Source: an uncultured Coriobacteriaceae bacterium (GTDB lineage Bacteria > Actinomycetota > Coriobacteriia > Coriobacteriales > Coriobacteriaceae). Taken from it: a DNA stretch of 64,000 bases. The notes below the pieces were generated by a model, which saw only the letters and a program-made list of their open reading frames with translations, had not been told where the DNA came from and did no database searches. Both the position numbers and the translations under genes were made by a program. Of the stretch, positions 4,522-62,003 are shown in pieces. The stretch spans positions 62,001 to 126,000 of the forward strand of contig CALUIM010000012.1 of assembly GCA_944320725.1 (NCBI GenBank), given 5' to 3'. Each line of letters begins with the position of its first letter. Position 1 is the first letter of the stretch.

Positions 4522-4883
<362 letters not shown>

Positions 4884-4931
4884 CCCTCATCTCAATCGAT
4901 GCACGCGCGGCAGGCTCGCTTTCACAGTGGG

Positions 4932-53895: not shown

Positions 53896-53965
53896 CGTGC
53901 CGAAACACGCTCGCAATCTTTACGCCTCATCGAACATCTTCGCAGGACCTGCGGCAAAGCTGTGC

Positions 53966-53971
53966 TATAGT
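53966..53971 (+). promoter_or_regulatory. -10 box of the ECF transporter operon leader
   Basis: TATAGT placed about 60 bases before the leader-peptide start, in the spacer after the lipid kinase gene. -35 not clear. Confidence 0.45.
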
Positions 53972-54027
53972 GCCCTCAACGCGATGCAACACCGCATCGA
54001 GCCGAGCACACGAAAGGAGCCGCCAGC

Positions 54028-54099
54028 ATGATGTACGCACACAGCAACTCCCTCATGAACTGGTGGTGGCGTGGTGAGAACTCGGCCGGTCGTCGGTGA
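54028..54099 (+). CDS. Tryptophan-sensing leader peptide (23 aa, three tandem Trp codons)
   Basis: A very short frame: ATG ATG … ATG AAC TGG TGG TGG CGT …, 23 codons then TGA, with GGAG eight bases before the first ATG. Three consecutive Trp codons (54061-54069) in a 23-codon frame are far above chance. It lies between a -10 box and a Rho-independent terminator, 140 bases before an ECF transporter gene. This is the arrangement of a trp-type attenuator: starvation for Trp stalls the ribosome at the TGG codons. The peptide is not expected to act itself. It is the best evidence that the following transporter carries tryptophan. Confidence 0.85.
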   Translation: MMYAHSNSLMNWWWRGENSAGRR

Positions 54100-54161
54100 G
54101 CCCCTTCGCGCCAGCATTTTTTGGCACGCACAGGCCTCCGGTTTGACCGGGGGCCTTTTTT
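54084..54161 (+). promoter_or_regulatory. Transcription attenuator of the ECF transporter operon
   Basis: GGCCGGTC (54084-54091), inside the leader peptide gene just after the Trp codons, can pair with GACCGG plus nearby CC (54145-54155), the 3' arm of the terminator. A ribosome stalled at the Trp codons would leave this segment free, form the antiterminator and let transcription proceed. A ribosome that reaches the TGA at 54097 would cover it and let the terminator form. A further hairpin (GCGCCA…TGGC-A-CGC) lies between them. The mutually exclusive pairing is my reading; it needs folding to confirm. Confidence 0.7.
54133..54161 (+). terminator. Attenuator terminator ahead of the ECF S-component gene
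   Basis: GGCCTCCGGT (54133-54142), loop TTG, ACCGGGGGCC (54146-54155), a ten-pair stem with one G-T, then TTTTTTAT. It lies before, not after, the transporter gene. Confidence 0.88.
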
Positions 54162-54241
54162 ATCGGCCGCCTCGCCCGTTCGCACCACGCGCCTCCCTCC
54201 CCCAACGGTTTTCGCACACACATTCAGAAAGGTTGATCATC

Positions 54242-54808
54242 ATGTCCCAGAACACTTCTCAGCCCCGCACCGTATCCACCGTCGACCGCGGCAAACTCGA
54301 CATCAAGGCCCTCGTCCTGCTCGCGGTGCTGCTCGCCGCCGGCTTCATCCTGAACTTCACCGTGGGCAAGGCTATCTCCACCATCTCCGCCGGCACCATC
54401 GCACCAGAATTCATCATCTCGGCGTTTTGCCTCACCATCCTCATCGTGCGCCCCAATGCCGGTCAGGCACTCATCATCGGACTCGTCTCGGCGGCTGTGA
54501 TCCAGATCACCACCACCTCCCCGGGTATCGACTTCGTGGCAGAGGGCATCGCCGCCGTTGTCATGGCGCTCATCGTCAACGCCGGCATGAAGACCGGCGC
54601 TAAGGCCATCATCCCCACCGTGGGCACCTTCGTGACGACGTTCCTCTCCGGTGCCATCTTCATGGTTATCAAGATGGCGCTCATGCAGTTTGACACGAGC
54701 CTCATCTCGCTTATGCTGCCCGTCGTCGCGCTCACCGCGGTATTCAATGCTATCCTCGTAGGCGCCCTGTATCTGCCCATCAAGCACGCGCTCAAGCTCG
54801 CCGACTAA
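54242..54808 (+). CDS. ECF transporter substrate-binding (S) component, predicted for tryptophan
   Basis: A 188-aa membrane protein with about six hydrophobic segments (from LKALVLLAVLLAAGFIL through FIISAFCLTILIV to ISLMLPVVALTAVFNAILVGALYL), typical of ECF S components. AAAGG is nine bases before the ATG. It heads an operon with a fused double ATPase (29 bases on) and EcfT, so it is a dedicated (group I) ECF importer. The substrate is inferred from the Trp attenuator just upstream; the protein itself has no substrate motif readable by eye. If the attenuator call is right, this is a high-affinity tryptophan uptake system. Confidence 0.82.
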   Translation: MSQNTSQPRTVSTVDRGKLDIKALVLLAVLLAAGFILNFTVGKAISTISAGTIAPEFIISAFCLTILIVRPNAGQALIIGLVSAAVIQITTTSPGIDFVAEGIAAVVMALIVNAGMKTGAKAIIPTVGTFVTTFLSGAIFMVIKMALMQFDTSLISLMLPVVALTAVFNAILVGALYLPIKHALKLAD

Positions 54809-54837: not shown

Positions 54838-56601
54838 ATGCAGCCCATCATCGAGATGCGCGATGTCTCGTTCGCGTACGGGCATGACGCCCAAAACGCC
54901 CTCTCTCACATCACACTGAGCATTCCCGCAGGTTCTGTTACCGGTATCATCGGTCCCTCGGGCGCGGGCAAGTCCACCCTCGCCGCCGTGCTCTCCGGCG
55001 CGATCCCGCACCATTTCACCGGATCGCTCTATGGCGAGACCATCGTAGACGGCACCGATACCTGCGACATGACGCTCACCGACATCTCGCGCATCGTGGG
55101 CAGCGTCAACCAAGACATCGATGCCCAGATGGTCGCCTCGGTAGTTGAAGACGAGCTGTTGTTCGGACTCGAGAACTTCGGCGTCGCCCACGACCGCATC
55201 GAAGCGACCATCACCAGCGCGCTTGACGCCGTGGGCATCGCTGACCTGCGCGACCGTGAGATCGCCACGCTCTCGGGCGGACAGAAGCAAAAGGTTGCCA
55301 TCGCCGCGATTCTCGCACTCGCCCCGCGCGTGCTCGTGCTTGATGAACCTACCGCCGCGCTCGATCCGGTAAGTTCGCGCATGGTTTTTGAATGCCTGCG
55401 TGATCTCAACGAGCGCGCGGGCATCACGGTGGTAGTTATCGAGCAGAAGGTGGCGCTCCTGTCGGAGTTCTGCGACCGCATGGTGGTCATGAACAAGGGC
55501 TCGATTGCACTTGAGGGAACGCCGCATGAGGTATTCGGCCATGCCGCCGAACTGCGTGCGATTGGCGTCGATAGCCCGCGTGTGGCACGCATCTCCAACA
55601 GCCTCATGTCCAAGGGTCTCTGTACGGCACACGAACCGTGCCTGAATGTCGAGGAGGCAGCGCAGCTCGTAGCCTCGATCGTGCCCGCCGGCGCCACGTG
55701 CGAGACATGCGTCTCGCCTGCGCCCCACACACCACGGCCGCATGCCGAGGGCGCACAGCCTGTCGTGCGCTTCCGCGGTGTCAACTTCGCCTATCCAGGC
55801 GGCGGTGCCTCGGTTAACAACCTCGAGATGACGGTCTACCCAGGCGAGCTGGTGGGTATCGTCGGCCAAAACGGTGCCGGTAAAACTACGGCCACCAAGC
55901 TGCTGAATGGCCTGCTCAAACCCTCCTCGGGATCGGTTGAGGTCGCCGGCCTCGACACGCGCGATGTCCCGGTATCGCAGATCGCGCGCCACACGGCGAC
56001 CCTCTTCCAGAACCCCGATCATCAGCTCTGCAAGAACACCGTGCTCGAAGAGGTCGCCTTCGGCCTCGAACTCGCCGGCGTCCCGAGCAGCGAAGCGCAG
56101 CAGCGCGCCTCCCGCGTCATCGATCGCTTTGGACTGCCCGCCCACGAAGCGCCCTTTGCGCTCTCGCGCGGGCAGCGTCAGATGATTGCCCTCGCCTCGG
56201 TGGTCGTGCTCGAGCCTGAGGTCGTCATCCTCGATGAGCCAACGAGCGGTCTCGACTATCGCGAGTGTATGACCGTGATGGAGACGGTGCGCGAGATGGC
56301 CGAGCAAGGCTCTGCTGTTATCATGGTCTGCCACGACATGGAGGTTGTCTCCGATTTCGCCGAGCGCCTTGTGGTCATGGCAGACGGCTGCATCCTCGCC
56401 GCCGGACCCACGATGGAGGTCTTTAACGACGCCTCGCTCATGAGACGCGCACGGGTCAAACCGCCGCAGGTCGTCGAGCTCGCCGCGCAACTCGCGCGCG
56501 ATGTCTCGGGGGCGTTCGCGGGCGTCACCGAGGTCTCCGGCATCGTCGATACCACAGCGCAGCTCGTCCATGCGCGCAACGAGGAGGGCAGCCATGCTTA
56601 A
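54838..56601 (+). CDS. ecfA: ECF transporter ATPase, two ABC domains fused
   Basis: A 587-aa protein of two ABC ATPase domains in tandem, which power the ECF importer. First domain: Walker A GPSGAGKST, signature TLSGGQKQKVAI, Walker B VLVLDEPTAALDP. A linker of about 45 residues (about 265-310) follows. Second domain: Walker A GQNGAGKTT, Q loop QNPDHQLCKNTV, signature ALSRGQRQMIAL, Walker B VVILDEPTSGLDY. The second signature has Arg in place of the first Gly (LSRGQ), which is not rare in this family. GAAAGG before the ATG; its stop overlaps ecfT by 8 bases. Confidence 0.94.
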   Translation: MQPIIEMRDVSFAYGHDAQNALSHITLSIPAGSVTGIIGPSGAGKSTLAAVLSGAIPHHFTGSLYGETIVDGTDTCDMTLTDISRIVGSVNQDIDAQMVASVVEDELLFGLENFGVAHDRIEATITSALDAVGIADLRDREIATLSGGQKQKVAIAAILALAPRVLVLDEPTAALDPVSSRMVFECLRDLNERAGITVVVIEQKVALLSEFCDRMVVMNKGSIALEGTPHEVFGHAAELRAIGVDSPRVARISNSLMSKGLCTAHEPCLNVEEAAQLVASIVPAGATCETCVSPAPHTPRPHAEGAQPVVRFRGVNFAYPGGGASVNNLEMTVYPGELVGIVGQNGAGKTTATKLLNGLLKPSSGSVEVAGLDTRDVPVSQIARHTATLFQNPDHQLCKNTVLEEVAFGLELAGVPSSEAQQRASRVIDRFGLPAHEAPFALSRGQRQMIALASVVVLEPEVVILDEPTSGLDYRECMTVMETVREMAEQGSAVIMVCHDMEVVSDFAERLVVMADGCILAAGPTMEVFNDASLMRRARVKPPQVVELAAQLARDVSGAFAGVTEVSGIVDTTAQLVHARNEEGSHA

Positions 56602-57340
56602 TGTCATCGACTATGTTCCCGGCACCACGGTCTTGCATCGCCTCAACCCGGTGACCAAGCTGGCGCTCGCCGCATCGATCATCATCGCCACCATCCTGGC
56701 AGATGGCTATGCCGCACTCATCGCGCTGCTGCTCATCACCTTGTTGCTTGGCGTCTACGCAGGTACGGCAACGCGCTTGCTCTCGCTGCTCAAGGTCCTC
56801 GTGCCCATTGCCGCGCTCATGCTCGTGCTCCAGCTCGCTTTCGTGCGCCACGGCGACCCGGTGTTTTTGTTCGCCACCACCGATGGTCTCGTCTCGGGCA
56901 CCAAGGCGTGCCTGCGCCTACTCGGCGTGGCGCTACCGCTTGTGCTTGTGCTCACCGTGACCAAGACAACCGACCTTGCCAACGCGTGCGTTGAGAAGCT
57001 GCACATCCCCTACAAGTACGCGTTCACCTTCACCACAGCGCTACGGTTCGTGCCGGTGTTCACCCAGGAGATGAACGCCATCATGGAGGCGCAGACCGCA
57101 CGCGGAGTCGAATTCGATTCCAAGAATCCGTTCCGCAAGCTCTCCCTCATGCTGCCGGTTTGCATTCCGCTGCTCGTAACCTCGGTGGGCAAGACCGATG
57201 CCACCGCACTCGCGGCAGAGCAGCGAGGCTTCTATCTCCGCACCCGCACCAGCAGCTACCGCCGGTATCCCTTTGCGCCGCGCGATGCCGTCTGCGGCGC
57301 GCTCTGCGTGGCGCTCATCATCGCCGGCGCGATTCTGTAG
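56594..57340 (+). CDS. ecfT: ECF transporter transmembrane component EcfT
   Basis: A 248-aa membrane coupling protein with about five helices and two cytosolic helices that contact the ATPases. The N-terminal HRLNPVTKLALAAS and the coupling motifs QTARGVEFDS (A-R-G) and AAEQRGFYLRTRTSSYR (x-R-G) are the EcfT signature. It overlaps ecfA and is followed after 8 bases by an rRNA methyltransferase gene. Confidence 0.93.
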   Translation: MLNVIDYVPGTTVLHRLNPVTKLALAASIIIATILADGYAALIALLLITLLLGVYAGTATRLLSLLKVLVPIAALMLVLQLAFVRHGDPVFLFATTDGLVSGTKACLRLLGVALPLVLVLTVTKTTDLANACVEKLHIPYKYAFTFTTALRFVPVFTQEMNAIMEAQTARGVEFDSKNPFRKLSLMLPVCIPLLVTSVGKTDATALAAEQRGFYLRTRTSSYRRYPFAPRDAVCGALCVALIIAGAIL

Positions 57341-57348
57341 GAGGCGGC

Positions 57349-58329
57349 ATGTCCCACGACAACGCGCTTCCCGAGCTCCTTGCACAACTCGCCGCCTCCA
57401 AAATCGACACGCGCGAAAGCGACGCCATACGCACTGGCTTTGAGGCAGCGGCCACGCGTCCCGTAACGCTGCGCACCAACATGCTGCGCGCTACGAGCGA
57501 CGAGGTTGCGGAAGCGCTCACGGATGCGGGCATCTCATATGAGCGCGTACCCTGGTTTGAGGATGCCTTCGTACTCACCAACGTTCGCGAACGCGCAATC
57601 TGGGACCTTCCCATCTACCAAGATGGCAGCGTCTACCTGCAAAGCCTCTCTTCAATGCTGCCGCCGCTCGTGCTGGCACCACGCGATGGGGCCGATGTGC
57701 TGGACATGTGTGCAGCACCGGGCGGCAAGACATCCGAGATGGCGGCGCTCGCACCACGTGCTCACATCACGGCATGCGAGATGAAAGCACCCCGCGCAGA
57801 CAAACTCGAATACAACCTACGCAAACTCGGCGTGCACACGGCAAATGTCATGCGCGTCGACGCGCGACGCATCGATGAGTTCTTCTCGTTCGACCAGATT
57901 TTGCTCGATGCCCCCTGCACGGGCACCGGTACCTACCACATCGGCGATGAGCGGGCGCAGACGCGCATGACCTCGCATCTGCTGGCACGCGTGACCAAGG
58001 CACAGCAGGCACTGCTCGACCGCGCGCTTACCGTGCTGAAGCCCGGCGGCGAGCTCGTCTACGCAACGTGCTCGATCATGCCGGAGGAAAACGAGCGGCA
58101 AGTGATAACGGCGCTCAAGCGCCATCGCGATTGCGAGCTGGTACCGCTCACCGGACCCGTACCCGAAGACACGCCTGCGCGGGCTGCAACGGCACAAGCT
58201 GTCGCAGACGCCGTCGAAGCAGGAGCAATCCCTCGCCTGCCCAACGAACTTCCCGGCACGCTCACCGTATGCCCCTCGCAGCTCTTCGAGGGATTCTATA
58301 TCGCAAAAATCAAGAAGGTCGCGCGCTAG
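57349..58329 (+). CDS. RsmB/RsmF-family RNA (cytosine-5) methyltransferase
   Basis: A 326-aa SAM-dependent m5C methyltransferase. An N-terminal ~90-residue RNA-binding region precedes DMCAAPGGKTSEMAAL (SAM), DAPCTGTGTYH (motif IV, releasing Cys) and LVYATCSIMPEENERQV (motif VI, nucleophilic Cys). It is short and lacks the N-terminal NusB-like domain of RsmB, so it is closer to the RsmF/YebU or Nop2 type. Target base not known. GTAGGAGG before the ATG at 57349; it follows ecfT by 8 bases and may be co-transcribed with the transporter, which would place it under the same attenuator. Confidence 0.92.
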   Translation: MSHDNALPELLAQLAASKIDTRESDAIRTGFEAAATRPVTLRTNMLRATSDEVAEALTDAGISYERVPWFEDAFVLTNVRERAIWDLPIYQDGSVYLQSLSSMLPPLVLAPRDGADVLDMCAAPGGKTSEMAALAPRAHITACEMKAPRADKLEYNLRKLGVHTANVMRVDARRIDEFFSFDQILLDAPCTGTGTYHIGDERAQTRMTSHLLARVTKAQQALLDRALTVLKPGGELVYATCSIMPEENERQVITALKRHRDCELVPLTGPVPEDTPARAATAQAVADAVEAGAIPRLPNELPGTLTVCPSQLFEGFYIAKIKKVAR

Positions 58330-61974: not shown

Positions 61975-62003
61975 TTACATTTCCCTGATATCTGCCGTAT
62001 AGT
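61975..62003 (+). promoter_or_regulatory. Promoter of the second GtrA gene
   Basis: TTACAT (61975-61980), exactly 17 bases, TATAGT (61998-62003). This is the clearest sigma-70-type promoter in the window by eye, so the second GtrA gene is independently transcribed. Confidence 0.65.

Follow-up and report, generated by a model that had tools for sequence, protein, structure and literature searches.

In the trp leaders of enteric bacteria the antiterminator has the 2:3 geometry, and in Bacillus the transporter TrpP is controlled by TRAP. Closer to the locus described here are the attenuators of the trp operons of Corynebacterium and Streptomyces, which, in the accessible part of the paper that describes them, are also predicted at a trpS gene and at a trpB2A operon (Seliverstov 2005, PMC1262725); that part makes no mention of Coriobacteria. 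Histidine leader attenuators have been proposed for his operons and for the hisZYX transporter (PMC9413887), and tryptophan T-boxes occur at transporters of the NSS family, to which the known tryptophan transporter TnaT belongs (PMC2494555). Uptake of tryptophan by an ECF system has been stated (PMC11487621). The name TrpP alone, it should be cautioned, proves nothing about transport: for a C. glutamicum protein so named, tryptophan transport was excluded (PMC11995493).

Here we analyse a window of 64,000 nucleotides, spanning positions 62,001–126,000 of its contig, from the genome of an uncultured Coriobacteriaceae bacterium; all coordinates are those of the window, and the leader and the importer operon lie on its plus strand. 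We are confident that a Trp-rich leader in this window acts as a ribosome-mediated transcription attenuator, with charged tRNA-Trp as its signal and a dedicated tryptophan ECF importer, made up of S, fused AA' and T components, as its target.

Results

The importer operon begins with an ECF S component (54242–54808), followed by fused ECF ATPases (A and A', 54838–56601; TIGR04520 E 4e-133, TIGR04521 E 5e-126) and a T component (56594–57340; PF02361 CbiQ, E 7e-25). The S component matches the TrpP profile PF17099 (E 1.3e-3) at 19 bits against a curated cut-off of 27.2, which makes it a distant relative of TrpP and not a member of that family. The initial annotation had described it as an orphan S component with tryptophan as its substrate; the label of orphan does not quite hold given this relationship, and tryptophan as substrate agrees with the TrpP match, which is found in 13 of 13 family members at E up to 0.1 and with a best E of 8e-5. 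Of six S relatives further removed within the order, five score above the TrpP cut-off. A predicted model of the S component (pLDDT 84.9) has other S components, ThiT among them, as its first PDB matches (TM 0.54–0.57, E above 0.1, probability to 0.99); a sequence search of the PDB with the S profile found no S component. Together, the S-component fold, taken from the predicted model, the two ECF ATPases and the T component make up an ECF importer. The S component is present in 64 of the 67 family genomes and in all 59 of the good ones. About a dozen family genomes carry a second S component, 43–49% identical to the first and directly 3' of it (e.g. L009:817-1356, L222:3335-3865), whose substrate may differ from that of the first.

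Eight bases after ecfT lies a gene for an RsmB/F-like rRNA methyltransferase (57349–58329; PF01189, E 7e-50), which is probably co-transcribed with ecfT in the window genome. It adjoins ecfT in five of the 11 relatives in which ecfT was found, stands 1.3 kb off in one and did not turn up in the stretch taken from the others. The suggestion that control extends to this gene therefore applies locally at most, since the arrangement is kept in only part of the relatives. Elsewhere in the window, Rfam identifies a class A RNase P RNA (4524–4885).

TrpA was found neither in the window genome nor in 63 of the 67 family genomes, and the window genome contains no TrpB-like match; a cell with this gene set seems unable to produce tryptophan. 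Leader and importer are both retained by the four family members that do have TrpA, and the importer is thus independent of auxotrophy.

The leader peptide ORF (MMYAHSNSLMNWWWRGENSAGRR plus stop, 54028–54099) has 23 codons, with an ATG at 54028, a second ATG at 54031 and a TGA at 54097–54099. Its Shine-Dalgarno sequence, AAAGGAG, lies at 54013–54019, and an AAAGGAG-like site is kept 5' of the leader in relatives. Three adjacent regulatory Trp codons, TGG TGG TGG, occupy 54061–54069, and AACTGGTGGTGG has a single occurrence in the 2.07-Mb genome, at the leader itself. Frame, Trp codons and ribosome site are all present as first described and are kept in relatives, giving the short ORF with tandem Trp codons that characterises an attenuator. 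Further upstream, a promoter-like extended -10 element, TGCTATAGT (53963–53971), recurs in almost every family member, about as far from the TGG run as here; it has no -35 match, and a consensus promoter scan made no call there. A perfect hairpin (CGATGC-AACACC-GCATCG, 53982–53999) is located close to where the leader RNA begins and is seen also in L002, and not clearly in other relatives. A check for a 1:2 pause hairpin revealed no clear hairpin at the Trp codons; a small hairpin over the stop codon (GTGAG-CCCC-TTCGC, 54096–54109) is predicted in the consensus (columns 36–38 with 47–49) and is kept, with few two-sided changes, and may serve to bring the ORF tail and the terminator together. 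The raw folding energy of the region is ordinary (z -0.6) and uninformative, so that the case for the leader rests on conservation and not on energy.

Leader sites were sought with a covariance model built from 50 diverse leaders of relatives within the searched set, such that matches in the genomes used for building arise by construction and those in unused genomes are independent. The model identified a site in 66 of the 67 family genomes and, across the order, in 131 of 299; the remaining family genome is 86% complete. Among the 64 family loci taken, one of which (L017) has its leader cut off by a contig end, adjacent Trp codons are present in 62 of 63 readable copies. The 63rd (L045, genome G058), at first an apparent exception, keeps two Trp codons as W-A-W, and every family copy read retains two or three. 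A total of 79 distinct leaders have three Trp codons and a nine-codon tail, the exceptions in Trp number being L021 and L125, with two, and L286, with W-A-W. All family copies read, including L021, which has lost one Trp, have nine codons between the last Trp codon and the stop, as do most others; the N-terminus of the peptide varies in length and sequence and the WWW with its nine-codon tail is kept. Outside the family, of 40 loci that carry an S-gene relative, mostly in Olsenella-like genomes, 37 have a Trp-codon leader ORF. The leader is missing, however, from many genomes of the order whose TrpP-like S components are more distant. Relatives that kept the transporter and lost the Trp codons or the pairing had been named at the outset as evidence against attenuation; across two families we found instead that the Trp codons and the GGUC/GACC match described below are kept. 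In G039, G047 and G056, where the S genes are missing or cut, the leader is found elsewhere on the contigs. Slackia isoflavoniconvertens (L097, L191) carries a close copy of the S component (76%) together with its leader; since it belongs to an otherwise distant family, operon and attenuator were probably transferred together horizontally.

An intrinsic terminator, as required of an attenuator, lies between the leader and the first structural gene (54132–54161). Its hairpin (54132–54156) has a 3-nt loop and 11 pairs, not the ten of the initial annotation, which had correctly noted the hairpin and its T run; five T follow. The scan found one terminator here against 0.2 expected in shuffles, and the stem covaries, with seven pairs showing changes on both sides. 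The antiterminator strand is placed in the ORF tail (54084–54096; core CCGGTCG, 54086–54092) by conservation, duplex energies and folding of the stalled state, and its partner, GACCGG, lies in the 3' arm of the terminator (54145–54150). The earlier proposal that GGCCGGTC at 54084–54091 pairs with this arm was right as to position and partner; the unbroken helix between CCGGUC and GACCGG, however, is only six pairs long, and a bulge must be skipped for the two outer G to pair. In a 50-sequence alignment, the seven-pair helix between the tail motif YYGGUCR and the terminator loop plus 3' arm (GACCGG) is paired in 95.1% of 350 cells, compared with 1–61% when the helix is slid by one to three columns. 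Compensatory covariation within this helix was not detected in the same alignment: there is no two-sided change and, because the columns are so conserved, no excess over shuffles. The antiterminator therefore rests on conservation and wobble.

Downstream of the Trp codons, codon 9 specifies at least eight residues (V/I/A/L/F/S/N/T), with C or T as its second base in 77 of 79 leaders and a pyrimidine as its third in 79 of 79. It is almost always followed by GGT CR (the Gly 10 codon is GGT 77 times and GGC once), and these pyrimidines and the GGT CR are the bases that face GACCGG. To judge from this pattern of sequence, the leader tail is constrained as RNA. The frames of L277 and L281 stop three codons past the Trp run, and in both the CCGRTCGGTCGATCG antiterminator element is kept outside the ORF, as non-coding sequence. 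On the partner side, the terminator loop differs in length and sequence between leaders except at its 3' edge, where GACC is retained apart from exceptions with GGCC, GATC or GGTC, all of which keep wobble pairing. The leader base after GGTC, when A, faces a partner T in 18 of 18 cases and, when G, in 30 of 55 (Fisher p 1.5e-4, with kinship ignored); this association is the only covariation signal found for the antiterminator, and is one-sided. Swapping tails among species costs little energy, with 120 of 5000 permutations as good as the native arrangement. The duplex reaches 14 pairs in L117, and in L160 it is extended with a different loop sequence.

We followed the competition between the two structures in minimum-energy folds of the growing window RNA. 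When a ribosome was placed on the second TGG, the tail remained bound to the terminator loop and 3' arm and was released only as the final bases of that arm emerged; when it was placed at the stop codon, the terminator was the sole structure to grow. This supports the earlier proposal that stalling at TGG would leave the tail free and that a ribosome at the stop would cover it, as does conservation. Across 81 distinct leaders in the stalled state, the tail GGTC has a probability above 0.5 of pairing with the terminator region in 77, 83 and 78% when eight, six and four bases are missing, compared with 31, 28 and 17% in shuffled-tail controls. Once the terminator hairpin is complete, the tail is still paired in 15% of the 81 leaders, and the completed terminator is favoured at equilibrium even with the ribosome stalled; antitermination must for this reason be kinetic. 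The attenuator model thus depends on kinetics, and the folding runs are not time-resolved. Conservation and folding together point to a mutually exclusive antiterminator, which a ribosome halted at the Trp codons would leave exposed and one at the stop codon would mask.

The same type of leader is found before other genes. Four genomes that were read from a single genus in a third family (L277, L278, L279, L281) have the Trp leader 5' of an NSS/SNF symporter gene (in L277, PF00209 sodium:neurotransmitter symporter, E 8e-47). In six further genomes (L282–L285, L288, L289) a WWW leader and terminator precede trpB2, encoding a TrpB-like enzyme (the two tested give NCBIfam E values of about 1e-166). 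Behind trpB2 in L289 comes a single frame whose start resembles a TrpP S component and which also contains an ECF ATPase. As all three kinds of gene with this leader fit tryptophan supply, a tryptophan sensor is the simplest reading.

Discussion

Our results suggest the following mechanism. When tryptophan is plentiful, a ribosome translating the leader would reach the stop codon and cover the ORF tail, upon which the terminator would form and the importer would be off. When tryptophan is scarce, the ribosome would stall at the TGG run and the YYGGUCR tail would remain free to pair with the emerging terminator loop and the first half of the 3' arm (GACCGG); captured in this way, the terminator would not be finished in time and RNA polymerase would read through into the importer genes, whose products would carry tryptophan. 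Because nearly all relatives retain the leader, it very probably switches on tryptophan uptake at tryptophan shortage in Collinsella-like gut bacteria. Here the attenuator would govern uptake and not synthesis, as first proposed. Tryptophan as the predicted substrate finds independent support in sequence comparison, from the TrpP match, the absence of tryptophan synthase genes and the presence of the leader at trpB2 and the NSS symporter.

The antiterminator could instead be of the classical four-segment kind, in which the partner of the tail is the terminator's 5' arm (2:3) and not the loop and 3' arm. This would match the geometry of the enteric trp leaders, and in folding runs with 16–24 nt missing the tail does pair for a time with the 5' arm while the 3' arm has yet to be transcribed; pairing of the tail peaks, however, once most of the 3' arm is out, and GACC at the loop and 3' arm is kept even where the 5' arm has changed (L048 and members with a GAGA loop), so we regard this geometry as unlikely. 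A somewhat smaller chance attaches to the attenuator being as described and the S component carrying another Trp-related compound, such as indole, another aromatic amino acid or a tryptophan precursor. Tandem second S components exist, and trpB2, which is thought to make tryptophan from indole, has the same leader and in L289 adjoins a TrpP-like S gene with an ECF ATPase; yet the S component matches TrpP, most family genomes including that of the window lack TrpA, and the window genome has no TrpB-like gene with which to use indole.

Two further readings, which dispense with attenuation, are both highly improbable. T-boxes commonly govern amino acid transporters (PMC2494555), and a T-box or other riboswitch might be accompanied by a Trp-rich ORF through chance. 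Against this, the Trp codons and the geometry from ORF to terminator are kept in dozens of species, there is no Rfam match at gathering score at this locus, RF00230 included, and a permissive scan gave nothing relevant; lacking Rfam support before the operon, a riboswitch was rejected. The terminator might also be a constitutive one serving the upstream lipid-kinase-like gene, which ends about 240 bases before it, with an unrelated small protein gene in between; but a conserved promoter element and the leader ORF both intervene, and the terminator is tied by sequence to the ORF tail in relatives.

Returning to the attenuator that would capture the terminator loop and 3' arm directly rather than the 5' arm, we lean towards the view that it underlies a lineage-wide tryptophan-acquisition regulon in the Coriobacteriales, in which a single leader-peptide attenuator has passed between a TrpP-like ECF importer, an NSS symporter and trpB2. 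On the leader reading, an ECF S component that almost every Collinsella-type gut bacterium carries gains a substrate. Most of these bacteria seem to lack the means of making tryptophan, and the leader indicates how they would tune the uptake of an amino acid contested by host and microbiota. This reading extends leader-peptide attenuation of tryptophan genes from synthesis to import, and leader codons become usable for transporter annotation in this group. A literature search, largely confined to papers available without subscription, found no tryptophan attenuator on an ECF importer or in Coriobacteria; as far as that search reached, the lineage, the ECF, NSS and trpB2 targets and the antiterminator geometry are new.

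Among known systems, TrpP (YhaG, PF17099) is likewise an S-component-type tryptophan importer whose profile the family members match, whereas the score of the window protein does not reach the cut-off and the protein comes with a fused ATPase and a T component of its own. The histidine attenuators (PMC9413887) share the extension of leader-peptide attenuation to an amino acid transporter, and differ in amino acid, in belonging to Firmicutes and in transporter class. As with the tryptophan T-boxes (PMC2494555), RNA-based tryptophan sensing here assigns substrates to transporters, with an NSS gene under a Trp leader in relatives; the T-box, however, is a tRNA-binding riboswitch, and the leader described here would be translated. 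Judging from the accessible part of PMC1262725, the actinobacterial attenuators are the most similar, coming from the same phylum and combining a leader ORF with two or three UGG codons, a GC-rich terminator with a U run and an alternative antiterminator pairing. They serve tryptophan synthesis or charging where this one would serve uptake, and the conserved complementary core given for them in that part is gGCC-rGCy-GGCC, while here it is YYGGUCR with GACCGG, the antiterminator strand lying inside the last codons of the leader.
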